From the IMG/VR virus record IMGVR_UViG_3300031673_000457, positions 1 to 24,629 of that record: 24,629 nucleotides of DNA; one strand, written 5' to 3'. Below are positions 8,557 through 17,761 of this stretch, piece by piece. Made by a program: the position numbers and the translations under genes. The notes under the pieces were generated by a model, which worked only from the letters and a program-made list of their open reading frames with translations, was not told where the DNA came from and ran no database searches. Positions within the stretch are counted from its first letter, which is position 1, and every line of letters begins with the position of its first letter. The DNA is from a virus.

Positions 8557-10572
8557 ATGTCCACCTCCCCGGAGCTCGAGCGATTCATCGAGGCGCGGCA
8601 AAGGCGCCTCGTTCGTTTATACCAGGACGCCTATGCCGAGTTGGTTTCCCGGCTAGCCCGGCAGAAGTTTTATGGCCTGTCAACGGAGTTCACCGGTAAT
8701 TTACTCCGCGATGTCGAGCGTACCCTGACCCGGTTGGACGGCGAGATGGTGACCTGGATCCAAGATACGTTCCCGGACGTCTATCGCGACAGCTCAGACC
8801 AAACCCTGGTCGACTTGAGCCGGCGATACCACATGGCGGGCCTCTCGGGCAGTTTCGCTCAAGTCCACCAAGACGCAGTACGGCGGCTGATGGCCGACAC
8901 ATTCCGCGACATCGCCGCCGCCACGCAGAACGTCAGGGCGGAGTTGAAGCGGGCCATCAGGGACGCCGCGAAAGGCATTTTCCGGCTGGGCGAGGTCACT
9001 GGCGAGACTCGGGTCCAGATGACCAAGCGGCTGGTCTCGAGGTTGGCGGCGCGCGGATTCACGGCCGAGTATGACGCGAAAGGGAAGTACATCAGGCTGG
9101 CTGAGTATTCGGATAGGCTGAGTTATGAACGCTACGCCGAACTCATGATGGAGAATCATTGGGTGGGGTTTGTTGACGCTGCTGGCCGGCGGTGGGACTT
9201 GTTGAACTACTCGGAGATGCTCACCAGGACGAAGATCCGGGAGGCCGTGTCCAGGGGCACCGAGGATAGGCTGCGCGCGAACGGCCTCGACTTGGTCCAG
9301 ATCGTGGGGCCCACTATCGTCGTCGATTGGTGCGGGGAGTACCGCGGCAAGGTGTTCAGTATTAATGGGAACAGCACTGAGTTCCCGCCGCTGGCATCCA
9401 TCCCTAACGGCGGGTGTCCAATGCATCCTCGGTGCGTGCTAGGCGGAACGTTTGTCACGGGACCGCGCCCAGTCATGTCGTTCAGCCGATGGCACGAGGG
9501 AGAGATCGTCGTCATCCGTACTGCCAGCGGAAATGAATTGTCCGTCACCCCAAATCACCCTGTATTGACGCCGGAAGGCTGGGTCGCCTCGGGATTGCTG
9601 AATGAACGCGATCAAGTCATCCGTTACCTGGGGCAGCAAGGGATGGTGGATGCCGCTGACCCAGATTATGTAGACATTCCAACCCGCATCGAAGAAATAA
9701 CGTGTTCTCTTGGGCATTCGGGCAGCGTGTTTGCCCGTAGCGTGCCAGTGGCCGCCGAAGACTTCCACGGCGACGGGGTGGGTTCCAATGTCTGTATTGT
9801 ACGGGCCGACGGCCTGTTGGGAAATGATCGTGATTCCACGATCAGCAAGCCATCCGGCCAAGATTCTTTCTGCCTTGCTGGTGTTGCTACCAGCACGCTG
9901 CACGCCGAGGGCGCGGCGCGAAAGCTGTTCAACAGAGTGCTTCTTGCCGCGGACCGCATCATGAGCGGCGGCAGTCAGAGCCAATCGTCCTTCAGGCGAA
10001 AGGCGTGCCAGTCGGAGCCGGGTCGCTTCGGACATGTTGGCGGCCTTCTGAACGCCGAATTCGGTCAGGCGCCGTTGAATGGTGGCGTTATGGACACCAA
10101 GAGAACGGGCGATGTCGCTCTTGGTTTCCCCGGCCTGGTAGCGGTCAAAGATCTCTTGGCTATTAAGGGGCAGCGTTTCGTAGGCATGCGCCGCCTTGGG
10201 TCCGCGCAAGGGGATACCCAGCTTGACAAATCGTCGCTGGAGGGTGGCGGCACCGATACCCACACTCTTAGCCAGGGGCTTCAACCCTTCGCCGGCCAGA
10301 TAGCGTTTGACACAATCATCCAGGTCGAACGGCGGGCATTTTCTGGACATGTTTACAACCTCCAAACAAAGTATAGTTGGTATGCTTGCAATTCAATTAT
10401 AACACATAACTGCAAGGATGTCGAGGCCCCATTCGTGGCAAAGTTCCACGAGGTCGAGGAATTGACCGCAGCCCAGATGCCCGCCGACTCGCGCTGGCTG
10501 GGGAAGAACAAGGCGAATGGTCACGCGGACCAATCCGTGCTGAACAAGATGTATCGAGCAGTCAAGACCTAG
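8557..10572 (+). CDS. minor head protein (SPP1 gp7/Mu F-like) precursor containing an intein, 671 aa
   Basis: The host protein is a minor capsid/head morphogenesis protein encoded directly after the portal. Residues 1-292 are the N-extein: helical N-terminus and the gp7/Mu F-like domain (YSEMLTRTKIREAVSRGTE, VVDWCGEYRGKVFSI) ending in IPNGGCPMHPR. Residues 293-618 are the intein. Residues 619-671 are the C-extein starting CKDVEAPF. Splicing would restore ...HPR-CKDV..., matching the conserved HP-x-C signature at the end of this domain in phages, and give a mature protein of about 345 aa, a usual size. The frame is open throughout, so the insert must be removed by protein splicing rather than RNA splicing. 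The start is ATG 8557, three bases after the portal stop, with a weak GGCGGTG. The opposite strand of the intein encodes a nuclease. Confidence 0.9.
   Translation: MSTSPELERFIEARQRRLVRLYQDAYAELVSRLARQKFYGLSTEFTGNLLRDVERTLTRLDGEMVTWIQDTFPDVYRDSSDQTLVDLSRRYHMAGLSGSFAQVHQDAVRRLMADTFRDIAAATQNVRAELKRAIRDAAKGIFRLGEVTGETRVQMTKRLVSRLAARGFTAEYDAKGKYIRLAEYSDRLSYERYAELMMENHWVGFVDAAGRRWDLLNYSEMLTRTKIREAVSRGTEDRLRANGLDLVQIVGPTIVVDWCGEYRGKVFSINGNSTEFPPLASIPNGGCPMHPRCVLGGTFVTGPRPVMSFSRWHEGEIVVIRTASGNELSVTPNHPVLTPEGWVASGLLNERDQVIRYLGQQGMVDAADPDYVDIPTRIEEITCSLGHSGSVFARSVPVAAEDFHGDGVGSNVCIVRADGLLGNDRDSTISKPSGQDSFCLAGVATSTLHAEGAARKLFNRVLLAADRIMSGGSQSQSSFRRKACQSEPGRFGHVGGLLNAEFGQAPLNGGVMDTKRTGDVALGFPGLVAVKDLLAIKGQRFVGMRRLGSAQGDTQLDKSSLEGGGTDTHTLSQGLQPFAGQIAFDTIIQVERRAFSGHVYNLQTKYSWYACNSIITHNCKDVEAPFVAKFHEVEELTAAQMPADSRWLGKNKANGHADQSVLNKMYRAVKT
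9439..10350 (-). CDS. antisense Vsr-like (EDxHD-type) homing endonuclease nested in the intein, 303 aa
   Basis: This complete gene is on the strand opposite the intein. Start ATG (complement of 10348-10350) lies eight bases after GGAGG (complement of 10359-10363); an upstream in-frame ATG at 10365 precedes the Shine-Dalgarno sequence and is rejected. Two homologous helix-turn-helix repeats occupy residues about 9-48 and 63-101 (LAKSVGIGAATLQRRFVKLG; IARSLGVHNATIQRRLTEFG), fitting DNA recognition. A linker at 118-150 resembles nuclease-associated modular DNA-binding segments. The catalytic domain spans about 157-232: SKAERIL (Glu161), YNTDI (Asp187), VAVEVFGGHWH (Glu196, His201, His203), then RTRYFFDAGWNVYIIWV. 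This is the pattern of the very-short-patch-repair fold used by EDxHD homing nucleases such as I-Bth0305I. It presumably cuts intein-less minor head genes at the HPR|C site. The stop TAG (9439-9441) lies six bases inside the intein. Confidence 0.88.
   Translation of the reverse strand: MSRKCPPFDLDDCVKRYLAGEGLKPLAKSVGIGAATLQRRFVKLGIPLRGPKAAHAYETLPLNSQEIFDRYQAGETKSDIARSLGVHNATIQRRLTEFGVQKAANMSEATRLRLARLSPEGRLALTAAAHDAVRGKKHSVEQLSRRALGVQRAGSNTSKAERILAGWLADRGITIISQQAVGPYNTDIGTHPVAVEVFGGHWHATGKHAARMPKRTRYFFDAGWNVYIIWVSGIHHPLLPQVTDDLIAFIQQSRGDPAFRRQYRVIWGDGQFISAGSTDDDDLSLVPSAERHDWARSRDKRSA
10359..10363 (-). promoter_or_regulatory. Shine-Dalgarno of the antisense endonuclease
   Basis: GGAGG on the minus strand, eight bases before the ATG at 10350. 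The same bases encode Asn-Leu-Gln of intein block F on the plus strand. It decides the start of the nuclease at 10350 rather than 10365. Confidence 0.75.
10396..10424 (-). promoter_or_regulatory. sigma70-like promoter for the antisense endonuclease
   Basis: On the minus strand, -35 TCGACA (complement of 10419-10424, five of six to consensus) is separated by exactly 17 bases from a perfect TATAAT (complement of 10396-10401), preceded by TG at the extended -10 position. Transcription would start near 10389, about 40 bases before the nuclease start codon. The -10 box and spacer lie over the intein's C-terminal catalytic codons (Ile-Ile-Thr-His-Asn), while the -35 lies in the C-extein, so the full promoter exists only after insertion. 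Confidence 0.7.
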
Positions 10573-16568: not shown

Positions 16569-16853
16569 ATGATCGACGAGTACCTGACGGATAATCTCTC
16601 TTGGCAGACCCATGCCACCGGCGGCGCCGGCCGGCCGGTTTATGACGCGCCGGTAATTATCAAAGGCCGCAAGCACGATCGGATCCGGCTGGTCCGCGAC
16701 AAGACCGGTGCCCAGGTGGTCAGCTCGGCGGAGGGATGGACTAAATCGGCTATCCAGATCGACGACAAGATCGATGGTCGGATCGTCCTGGCCCGGGGCG
16801 ACCAGAAGACCCTAGACGGCATCCTGGAATGCTACATGTTCTACCTGGCCTGA
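16569..16853 (+). CDS. small neck/head-completion-region protein, 94 aa
   Basis: The start chosen is ATG 16569, eight bases after GAGGTG (16555-16560) in an extended GAGGTGATC. An in-frame GTG at 16524 has no ribosome binding site. The sequence starts MIDEYLTDNLSW and contains GGAGRPVYDAPVIIKGRKH, with beta strands throughout and no catalytic motif. In this gene order the slot normally holds a head closure (stopper) protein such as SPP1 gp16/HK97 gp7. Assignment by position only. Confidence 0.65.
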   Translation: MIDEYLTDNLSWQTHATGGAGRPVYDAPVIIKGRKHDRIRLVRDKTGAQVVSSAEGWTKSAIQIDDKIDGRIVLARGDQKTLDGILECYMFYLA

Positions 16854-16868
16854 CAGGAGGGTGATGCC

Positions 16869-17369
16869 ATGGCCGACGACTTCGAGATCAAGATCGAGTG
16901 GGAGGGCTTCGACGAGGTCCGTCAGGCCCTGCGCCAGGCCACAAAGGAGATTCTGGCCGCCGCGACCCATGCCATGGTCGAAAATGCAGAGGACCTGCTG
17001 GGACGCGCCATGGCGCTGGCGCCGATCGATGAAGGTACACTGCGAGGCAGCGGGTCTGCCCGAGTAAATCGTGGCGGGGTGGCCGTGACGGAGATGCGAA
17101 CCGATGAAAGCGGTGGTAAGACGCACATCATTAAGCAGATTCCTGGCTCTGACTTGGGATCTATGATCAATTTGGTCGGTGATAACCAGATTGAGGCAGA
17201 GGACGGCTTCAATACGCCCTATGCCGCGCGCCAACACGAGGAAATTTTGTGGAAGCATCCCCAGGGCGGCGAGGCCAAGTACCTGGAGAAGCCGTTGAAA
17301 CAGCAAGCTAACGACTACGCGCGGAATATAGCTACCGCCATCAAAGGGGAGGTGACGCATGGCGGATGA
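16869..17369 (+). CDS. HK97 gp10-like tail/neck protein, 166 aa
   Basis: HK97 gp10-family proteins act at the head-tail joining step. The family pattern is clear: N-terminal helix with LRQATKEILAAATHAM, then MALAPIDEGTLRGSG, a strand region, and the C-terminal FNTPYAARQHEE...HPQGGEAKYLEKPL segment. Length is normal for a version with an extra loop between the two halves. The start is ATG 16869, eight bases after AGGAGG (16855-16860). It overlaps the next gene by four bases as ATGA. Confidence 0.85.
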   Translation: MADDFEIKIEWEGFDEVRQALRQATKEILAAATHAMVENAEDLLGRAMALAPIDEGTLRGSGSARVNRGGVAVTEMRTDESGGKTHIIKQIPGSDLGSMINLVGDNQIEAEDGFNTPYAARQHEEILWKHPQGGEAKYLEKPLKQQANDYARNIATAIKGEVTHGG

Positions 17370-17761
17370 CAGCGAAAGACCTGGTTGATTTTTTGGAAAC
17401 AGGCGGGATCGGGACATATGAGACCGATCTTTTTTACAGTTTCCTCCCACCCGAACCCGCCGCCCTGGTGTGCGTCCTCCCCAGCGGCGGCTATCCGCCG
17501 GATCTGTACCTGCCGATCGCTGACCCGACATTCCAGATCTGCATCAGGGCGGAGACATATGACGACGCGGAGGCCCAGGCGGCGGCTGTGGCGGCGCTGT
17601 TCCGGGATGCGCTGGACCGTCCGAAGACCAATTTTACCATCGGGACGACCTATGTCTATTTGGCGCAGTTTTTGCAGGAGCCAACCACGGCTTACATCGG
17701 TTACAACACCAACGGGCGGGCCGAATTTTCTTGTAATCTGCATCTGAAAATAAGAATTTGA
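17366..17761 (+). CDS. tail terminator/minor capsid-like protein, 131 aa
   Basis: It sits between the gp10-like and tail tube genes, where the tail terminator (lambda gpU/SPP1 gp17-type) is encoded. Visible features fit a small alpha/beta tail completion protein: N-terminal TAKDLVDFLETGG helix, strands in VCVLPSGGYPPDLYLPIADPTFQICIRAE, helix DDAEAQAAAVAALFRDAL, and C-terminal strands FSCNLHLKIRI. These proteins cap the tail and join it to the head. The start is ATG 17366 in an ATGA overlap with the previous gene. Confidence 0.75.
   Translation: MTAKDLVDFLETGGIGTYETDLFYSFLPPEPAALVCVLPSGGYPPDLYLPIADPTFQICIRAETYDDAEAQAAAVAALFRDALDRPKTNFTIGTTYVYLAQFLQEPTTAYIGYNTNGRAEFSCNLHLKIRI

Follow-up and report, generated by a model that had tools for sequence, protein, structure and literature searches.

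The virus record IMGVR_UViG_3300031673_000457 of IMG/VR (24,629 bases, fairly GC-rich, analysed over its whole length and called the window below) carries an intein and a nuclease gene on opposite strands of the same DNA. The gene for a MuF-type phage minor head protein lies on the plus strand at 8557–10572 and is split by the intein, which runs from Cys at 9433 to Asn at 10410. The N-extein (8557–9432) matches Pfam Phage_min_cap2 (E 1.4e-10) and the PHROG minor head protein (6.6e-34), and the C-extein with the stop codon is read at 10411–10572. The intein (9433–10410) has 326 residues, Cys1 to Asn326, and the +1 residue is Cys. On the minus strand, an open reading frame (ORF) of 303 amino acids extends from an ATG at 10350 to a TAG at 9441–9439. 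This ORF, the nuclease gene (9439–10350), lies wholly within the intein and its stop is a few codons from intein Cys1. Intein residues are numbered from Cys1 (codon at 9433) and nuclease residues from the ATG at 10350.

In the window, the codons of the intein and the nuclease are mutual reverse complements in a single codon register. At 9742–9801, intein residues 104–123 on the plus strand (VPVAAEDFHGDGVGSNVCIV) face nuclease residues 184–203 on the minus strand (YNTDIGTHPVAVEVFGGHWH). This segment contains the intein motif EDFHGDG (residues 109–115, 9757–9777, plus strand), which faces the nuclease catalytic core. The codon for nuclease Glu196 (9763–9765, minus strand) faces intein Phe111, and the codon for Asp187 lies at 9790–9792 on the minus strand. 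When both frames were re-read, the exact register, coordinates and residues that a first-pass annotation had given for this segment were correct, as were the positions of Asp187, Glu196 and His203.

The two proteins and their distribution

On the intein, PF14890 scores 31.3 bits (E 2.1e-7), below its cut-off of 35.8, TIGR01445 scores 24.8 with a cut-off of 24.5, and TIGR01443 scores 11.2, below its cut-off of 15.6. C1, T39, H42 and N326 are invariant in 24 inteins, and the +1 residue is Cys in 138 of 140. The structural model of the intein has a mean predicted local distance difference test (pLDDT) score of 64.9. It is confident at residues ~1–65 and 291–326, where the ends exceed 90, and mostly below 50 at residues 128–277. 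Its best matches in the PDB are structures of the Mtu RecA mini-intein (5i0a, E 2e-4). As modelled, the intein has a Hint fold and Hint-type motifs, and splicing is predicted.

The AlphaFold2 model of the nuclease, built from 61 window and IMG/VR sequences, has a mean pLDDT of 90.2 and a predicted template modelling score (pTM) of 0.67. Judged by model confidence on each strand, therefore, the nuclease product folds nearly throughout in silico and the intein product at its ends only. The top Foldseek match of the nuclease model in the PDB is the catalytic domain of I-Bth0305I (3r3p; E 1.4e-3, probability 1.00). With VIA-align, the model aligns to Vsr (1cw0) over 114 residues at 2.3 A (Z 11.9) and to 3r3p over 94 residues (Z 10.0). 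The single nuclease sequence has no match in the PDB, but its profile matches 3hrl (6.8e-8) and 3r3p (1.1e-3). Pfam REase_MTES_1575 is found in 41 of the 61 members (E 0.01), together with many helix-turn-helix families, which match the window nuclease and other members. Among 108 nucleases less than 55% identical, Tyr184 and Asp187 are present in all 108 and Glu196 in 107; Glu161 (99/108) and His203 (77/108) are less strictly kept. The nuclease is confidently modelled as helix-turn-helix DNA-binding units joined to a Vsr/I-Bth0305I-like (EDxHD) catalytic domain. Glu161, Asp187, Glu196 and often His203 are kept and may correspond to the EDxHD residues; the likeness to EDxHD enzymes is one of fold. 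Weak matches in Caulobacter phage C1 (L239:2327-3085) were set aside; they consist of helix-turn-helix repeats like those of the N-terminal part of the nuclease, with no catalytic motif seen. Some Streptomyces plasmid proteins also have helix-turn-helix repeats that resemble this N-terminal part.

Searches with tblastn match the nuclease in 128 of 50,697 phage records and the intein in 124, and the counts per organism are much alike for the two; the organisms matched are Salmonella, Gordonia, Pseudomonas, Klebsiella, Vibrio and Escherichia. Among 24 loci (22 phage regions and two from IMG/VR), 23 have the nuclease within the intein, in register on the other strand, the exception being the Acinetobacter phage locus L020. 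With the window added, the count is 24 of 25. Short-peptide searches for the intein and the nuclease found two loci at most, as the family has diverged too far, and queries derived from alignments were too variable to collect loci; DNA patterns succeeded. An 18-nt pattern for block F, which holds the nuclease ribosome-binding site and start, is found in 97 IMG/VR stretches, 88 of them with both genes. A codon pattern for EDFHGDG, in which the intein amino acids are fixed and third codon positions are free, is found in at least 120 IMG/VR stretches. Of 109 loci with this pattern that had not previously been collected, 101 contain both genes, one the intein only and seven neither. Among all 130 loci with the exact pattern, 122 have intein and nuclease, one has the intein only and seven have neither. 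The recurrence of DFHGDG that the first-pass annotation named is thus real, and its suggestion that many such inteins hide a nuclease is borne out by the 122 loci and by selection along the whole nuclease strand.

When all loci are pooled, both genes are present in 211 of 228, and in 211 of 211 they lie on opposite strands in register 0. ORF length was rejected as a criterion for the nuclease gene and is alone weak proof, because other genes in the window have stop-free runs of up to 240 codons in the antisense register. It is the homology, with both genes in register at 211 of 228 loci, that takes the antisense gene beyond chance, and it is near certain that the two-strand gene pair is real. 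The shared register is best explained by common descent and does not count as independent evidence. The 17 loci without one or both genes were left out, and so were 42 of the 211 in which clean ends, or a start close to block F, were lacking. The remaining 169 cleanly delimited loci reduce to 140 at less than 95% and 93 at less than 50% nuclease identity, and in loci trimmed in this way 91% of intein codons are coded on two strands.

Two plasmid records, plasmid III of Candidatus Promineifilum breve (L237) and one from Streptomyces platensis (L238), contain phage head genes that match both the intein and the nuclease; the arrangement therefore extends to Chloroflexota and Streptomyces. In Salmonella phage vB_StyS-sam (L235:1688-2089), the public annotation has a 133-amino acid antisense hypothetical protein within the intein, which is apparently an unrecognised piece of the nuclease.

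Selection on both strands

The codons TTA, CTA and TCA, which place a stop on the opposite strand, were counted in 137 loci less than 80% identical, with expectations from extein codon usage. They number 0 in the nucleases (602 expected) and 0 in the inteins (787 expected). The zeros arise because both frames are open, and the expected numbers give the cost. In six loci below 42% GC, the nuclease again has 0 of these codons (76 expected). For the window on its own, a complete lack of them would not be an extreme outcome (ln P about -5). Elsewhere in the window, a stretch of 166 codons at 16869–17369 (plus strand) also has no TTA, CTA or TCA and overlaps a 239-amino acid ORF at 16812–17531 (minus strand), which may be chance in GC-rich DNA.

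The nuclease also occurs outside an intein. The Acinetobacter phages IME285 (L020), BUCT629 and P1068 have an identical nuclease gene that is convergent beside an uninterrupted MuF gene, with no intein (L020:455-1348 in IME285; L236:2501-3394 in BUCT629). In this gene, 12 of 297 codons are TTA, CTA or TCA and the facing frame is full of stops; stop avoidance is therefore lost outside the intein. The L020 gene was rejected as an ordinary free-standing homologue, since it adjoins an intein-less MuF gene and its stop avoidance is gone. It can be taken as a natural control or as a fractured descendant.

To assess selection on one protein, the other was held fixed and its synonymous codons were permuted sequence by sequence; the conservation observed was then compared with that in 200 shuffles. 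The sample was 65 sequences less than 55% identical, picked without reference to EDFHGDG. When the intein is held, none of the shuffles reaches the observed nuclease conservation in any region (Z 8.5 to 65). When it is the nuclease that is held, the ends of the intein lie far above the shuffles (blocks A/N2, Z 42; block B, Z 67). Block B (T-P-N-H, residues 39–42, 9547–9558, plus strand), with the invariant Thr39 and His42, faces the C-terminal nuclease segment VIWG, and residues 31–60 are constrained on both strands. Residues 61–100 have a slight excess (0.33 vs 0.17, Z 8.6). For residues 126–170 there is none (-0.16 vs -0.17, Z 0.4; 60 of the 200 shuffles score as high), and this stretch serves as an internal control for inflation through relatedness. 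Residues 171–290 have a small one (-0.07 vs -0.13, Z 5.2). The six DFHGDG columns have a BLOSUM score of 4.75, with 1.26 expected (Z 38), a value reached in 0 of 200 shuffles. Together with the intein model and the close pairs described below, these results mark residues 126–290 (9808–10302, plus strand) as a shadow of the nuclease, pure at 126–170 and nearly so at 171–290. DFHGDG is conserved beyond what the nuclease accounts for.

The codons that face the catalytic residues have a similar pattern in the 65 sequences. Opposite Asp187, the intein has Val GTC in 49 and Ile ATC in 16. Opposite Glu196, it has Phe TTC in 62 and TTT, which would make Lys in the nuclease, in none, while Leu CTC, which would keep Glu, occurs twice. 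Both strands are therefore selecting at these codons. In six close pairs (DNA 76–95% identical), the N-terminal end of the intein has 28 nuclease-silent and 30 intein-silent changes, and 4 that alter both proteins (30.4 expected). The middle has 166 nuclease-silent and 44 intein-silent changes. In the core there are 32 nuclease-silent and 7 intein-silent changes, and 1 that alters both (19.7 expected). Both strands are under selection. The comparison of codon positions on the two strands that the first-pass annotation had proposed, made here on the close pairs, finds constraint on both and not on the sense strand only. Its proposal that DFHGDG is itself the shadow of an antisense nuclease is only half right: residues 126–290 behave in this way, and the motif is not a shadow alone.

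The annotation had also named DFHGDG conserved over a broken antisense frame as the case that would speak against it. Such a case was found once. A virus contig (L155:5516-5998) encodes a 161-amino acid mini-intein of the same family that keeps EDFHGDG and has stops in the antisense frame. Here the Phe of EDFHGDG is TTT, and the facing Glu codon is thus Lys. The block-F His is replaced by Gln, the block-F Leu is CTT and the block-G Ile codons are ATC ATC. The antisense signals are therefore lost while the intein motif stays. This mini-intein is a single case and is either derived or ancestral. Two further searches for its kin found none clearly alike, and tblastn in phages found apparently nuclease-bearing inteins only, among the matches listed (50 of 126 records).

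The splicing blocks at the C-terminal end of the intein face putative start signals of the nuclease. Block F (GHVYNLQT, 10345–10368, plus strand) lies opposite a predicted ribosome-binding site and the start codon, and the nuclease start region TTGGAGGTTGTAAACATG is the reverse complement of HVYNLQ in this block. A Shine-Dalgarno-like GGAGGT is read at 10358–10363 (minus strand), 7 nt upstream of the nuclease ATG. Block G (CNSIITHN, 10387–10410, plus strand) faces a candidate -10 box, TATAAT (10396–10401, minus strand; extended form TGtTATAAT), which is antisense to Ile322-Ile323. A -35-like TCGACA (10419–10424, minus strand) lies within the C-extein at a spacing of 17 nt. This promoter-like site, with TG before the -10, matches at 11 of 12 positions; one such site was found, with 0.6 expected in shuffles.

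Codon choice in blocks F and G was compared with extein usage in 43 loci less than 55% identical and chosen blind to the two blocks; the expectations assume that loci are independent. The block-F Leu is CTC in 34 of 41 (9.4 expected) and the block-F His is CAT in 20 of 25 (9.8 expected). In block G, Ile(-4) is ATA in 15 of 25 (3.1 expected), Ile(-5) is ATT in 18 of 27 (5.8 expected) and Val(-4) is GTA in 7 of 10 (1.6 expected). Tyr has the opposite trend, with TAC in 10 of 28 (17.1 expected). A TATAAT hexamer with at least five of six matches occurs at a fixed block-G position in 72 of 137 loci, and a stricter offset scan places 71 -10 boxes at the block-G position, with 14 at the next offset. 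The counts show codon-level selection for antisense start signals. Read from sequence, skewed synonymous codons would place the ribosome-binding site and start codon of the nuclease in block F and, often, a -10 box in block G; this coding is new here.

Probable mobility and rival explanations

When the extein flanks of phage Snoke are joined, they match 171 phage records. In Snoke they are interrupted by the intein (span 1466 = 650 + 816). The site is empty, with contiguous flanks, in K1ind1, K1ind2, K1G and many others (among the matches listed, 60 of 171), and filled and empty sites are both present in Guernseyvirinae. KMB36, which is annotated with an intein, matches the Snoke flanks only to a different point of the same gene. 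The available part of the Snoke paper (PMC6776784) records the intein and its absence from K1ind2, with no mention of an antisense gene. One gene is interrupted at different sites, and by different inteins, in fEg-Eco06 and Snoke; each of these inteins has an antisense nuclease of its own. The N-exteins form 14 sequence clusters, with 114 of 138 in one MuF cluster. Intein-nuclease pairs also occur in a dCMP deaminase gene (L022:748-1632, E 5.6e-11) and in a fusion gene for uracil-DNA glycosylase and polymerase A (L090:11477-12289), and the host gene at L057 is possibly a terminase (E 0.003). Nucleases from different host-gene clusters are at most 51% identical, as would be expected if the element changes hosts. 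It is likely that the antisense nuclease drives homing.

Very probably, the locus forms a two-strand mobile element in which the gene antisense to the intein encodes the homing endonuclease of that intein. Expression, splicing, cleavage and homing, as we infer them, would proceed as follows. The plus strand would give the head protein, from which the intein would excise itself. The minus strand, in exact codon register, would give the nuclease, expressed from a promoter with its -10 box opposite block G and its ribosome-binding site and start opposite block F. The nuclease would then cut intein-less alleles of the same gene, and repair would copy the element in. It is also probable that the element represents a widespread class in which both strands are functional genes locked codon for codon. 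In this class, splicing motifs would face the promoter box, ribosome-binding site, start codon and C-terminal segment of the nuclease, and the catalytic core would face an independently selected intein motif, a living case in which two unrelated catalytic proteins are coded bidirectionally. Four results weigh against this interpretation. The -10 box is present in 32 of 69 loci of the GC-richest class, so the promoter box is not universal. In 15 named phages, Ile(-5) is ATT in 3 of 6 (2.1 expected). The Foldseek E-value to I-Bth0305I is 1.4e-3 at best, with no match below 0.001. The register shared by 211 of 211 loci may stem from one ancestral event and not from 211 independent ones.

Four other explanations were weighed against the two-strand mobile element. 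An antisense gene that is expressed and serves as a repair, regulatory or anti-competitor nuclease housed in the intein, and not in homing, is unlikely. Its fold is near the Vsr repair nuclease (Z 11.9) and helix-turn-helix units occur in regulators too, but the intein location, the site polymorphism, the several host genes and the likeness to I-Bth0305I are all consistent with homing. It is about as unlikely that DFHGDG is conserved only through the facing nuclease core and that the intein has no need of it. An antisense nuclease is present at 122 of 130 loci with the EDFHGDG pattern, the bulk of the intein middle does act as a shadow, and the intein model is unsure at the motif (10-residue mean pLDDT 63 and 54). 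However, the six columns exceed the nuclease-held shuffles (4.75 vs 1.26, 0/200), Glu could be written GAG with Leu in the intein, yet the intein has Phe in 62 of 65, and the mini-intein keeps EDFHGDG without a nuclease.

Two further explanations make the antisense frame a relic or an artefact. That the nuclease is a fossil of past homing, with a frame that persists since long antisense frames survive easily, is very improbable: GC-rich DNA does retain such frames (as long as 240 codons in other genes of the window), but the 166 nuclease-silent and 44 intein-silent changes in the middle of the close pairs point to present purifying selection on the nuclease, and the six AT-rich loci remain open as well (0 vs 76 expected). 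The idea that the antisense ORF is spurious and only mirrors the intein gene has next to no probability and is already refuted. Codon-register antisense frames of GC-rich genes are often stop-free, but here the nuclease model is confident and the intein middle is not, the nuclease profile matches 3hrl and 3r3p, and the start-signal codons are skewed.

Relation to known systems

In canonical inteins, the homing endonuclease (LAGLIDADG or HNH) forms part of the intein polypeptide, as a domain in the same frame. The two-strand element resembles these in having a splicing domain and a mobility nuclease at one insertion site. It is unlike them in that the nuclease is a separate gene on the opposite strand (211/211) that overlaps the splicing blocks themselves, and in that the intein middle is largely a low-confidence shadow. 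In fractured genes, a nuclease lies between the halves of a split intein. Here, in contrast, the intein is continuous (in the window and 24 loci) and the nuclease is antisense to it. With EDxHD/Vsr-like homing endonucleases (I-Bth0305I, PDB 3R3P) and the fractured genes of Dassa et al. (2009), the nuclease shares the catalytic fold, separate DNA-binding units and a phage homing setting.

Three other systems are similar in part. As described in excerpts of PMC9548176, rDNA group I introns have antisense endonuclease genes, for example I-DsqI, in which the mobility gene is likewise opposite the host-gene strand; those introns are spliced as RNA and their sense strand need not code for protein, whereas both strands code for protein here. 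The ShiLan domain, in the portions of PMC11855218 consulted, likewise conceals a homing endonuclease, in a different frame of an insertion that is itself in frame with a phage gene. This endonuclease is an out-of-frame HNH enzyme with no self-splicing domain, unlike the antisense, codon-register, Vsr-like nuclease in a recognisable intein. The word 'antisense' occurs 0 times in those portions, which report overlapping frames as frequent in Actinobacteriophages. The Rodin-Ohno coding of tRNA synthetases similarly has the conserved cores of two enzymes facing codon by codon; in the available text of PMC4082485 it is a hypothesis on ancestral genes, whereas the gene pair here is present-day. The intein is mentioned in papers on this group of phages, with no antisense gene in the sections available (PMC8425127, PMC11162368). 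A literature search found no intein with an antisense endonuclease; fractured-gene work and the PhagesDB intein survey were outside its reach, and an earlier description is possible. The components, inteins and Vsr-like EDxHD homing endonucleases, are known; the arrangement differs from an in-frame domain, a split intein and the ShiLan HNH.

Head-gene inteins of this family seem to be nuclease-less, and surveys of annotated frames would miss a nuclease on the opposite strand. The pattern provides a sequence signature for finding further elements, and possibly compact tools for splicing and cutting. It is a natural experiment in two-strand coding, in which opposed cores of the Rodin-Ohno kind can be studied in living genes with more than 100 diverged copies. 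The overlap may also aid persistence of the element, as the intein would also be changed by many of the mutations that inactivate the nuclease.

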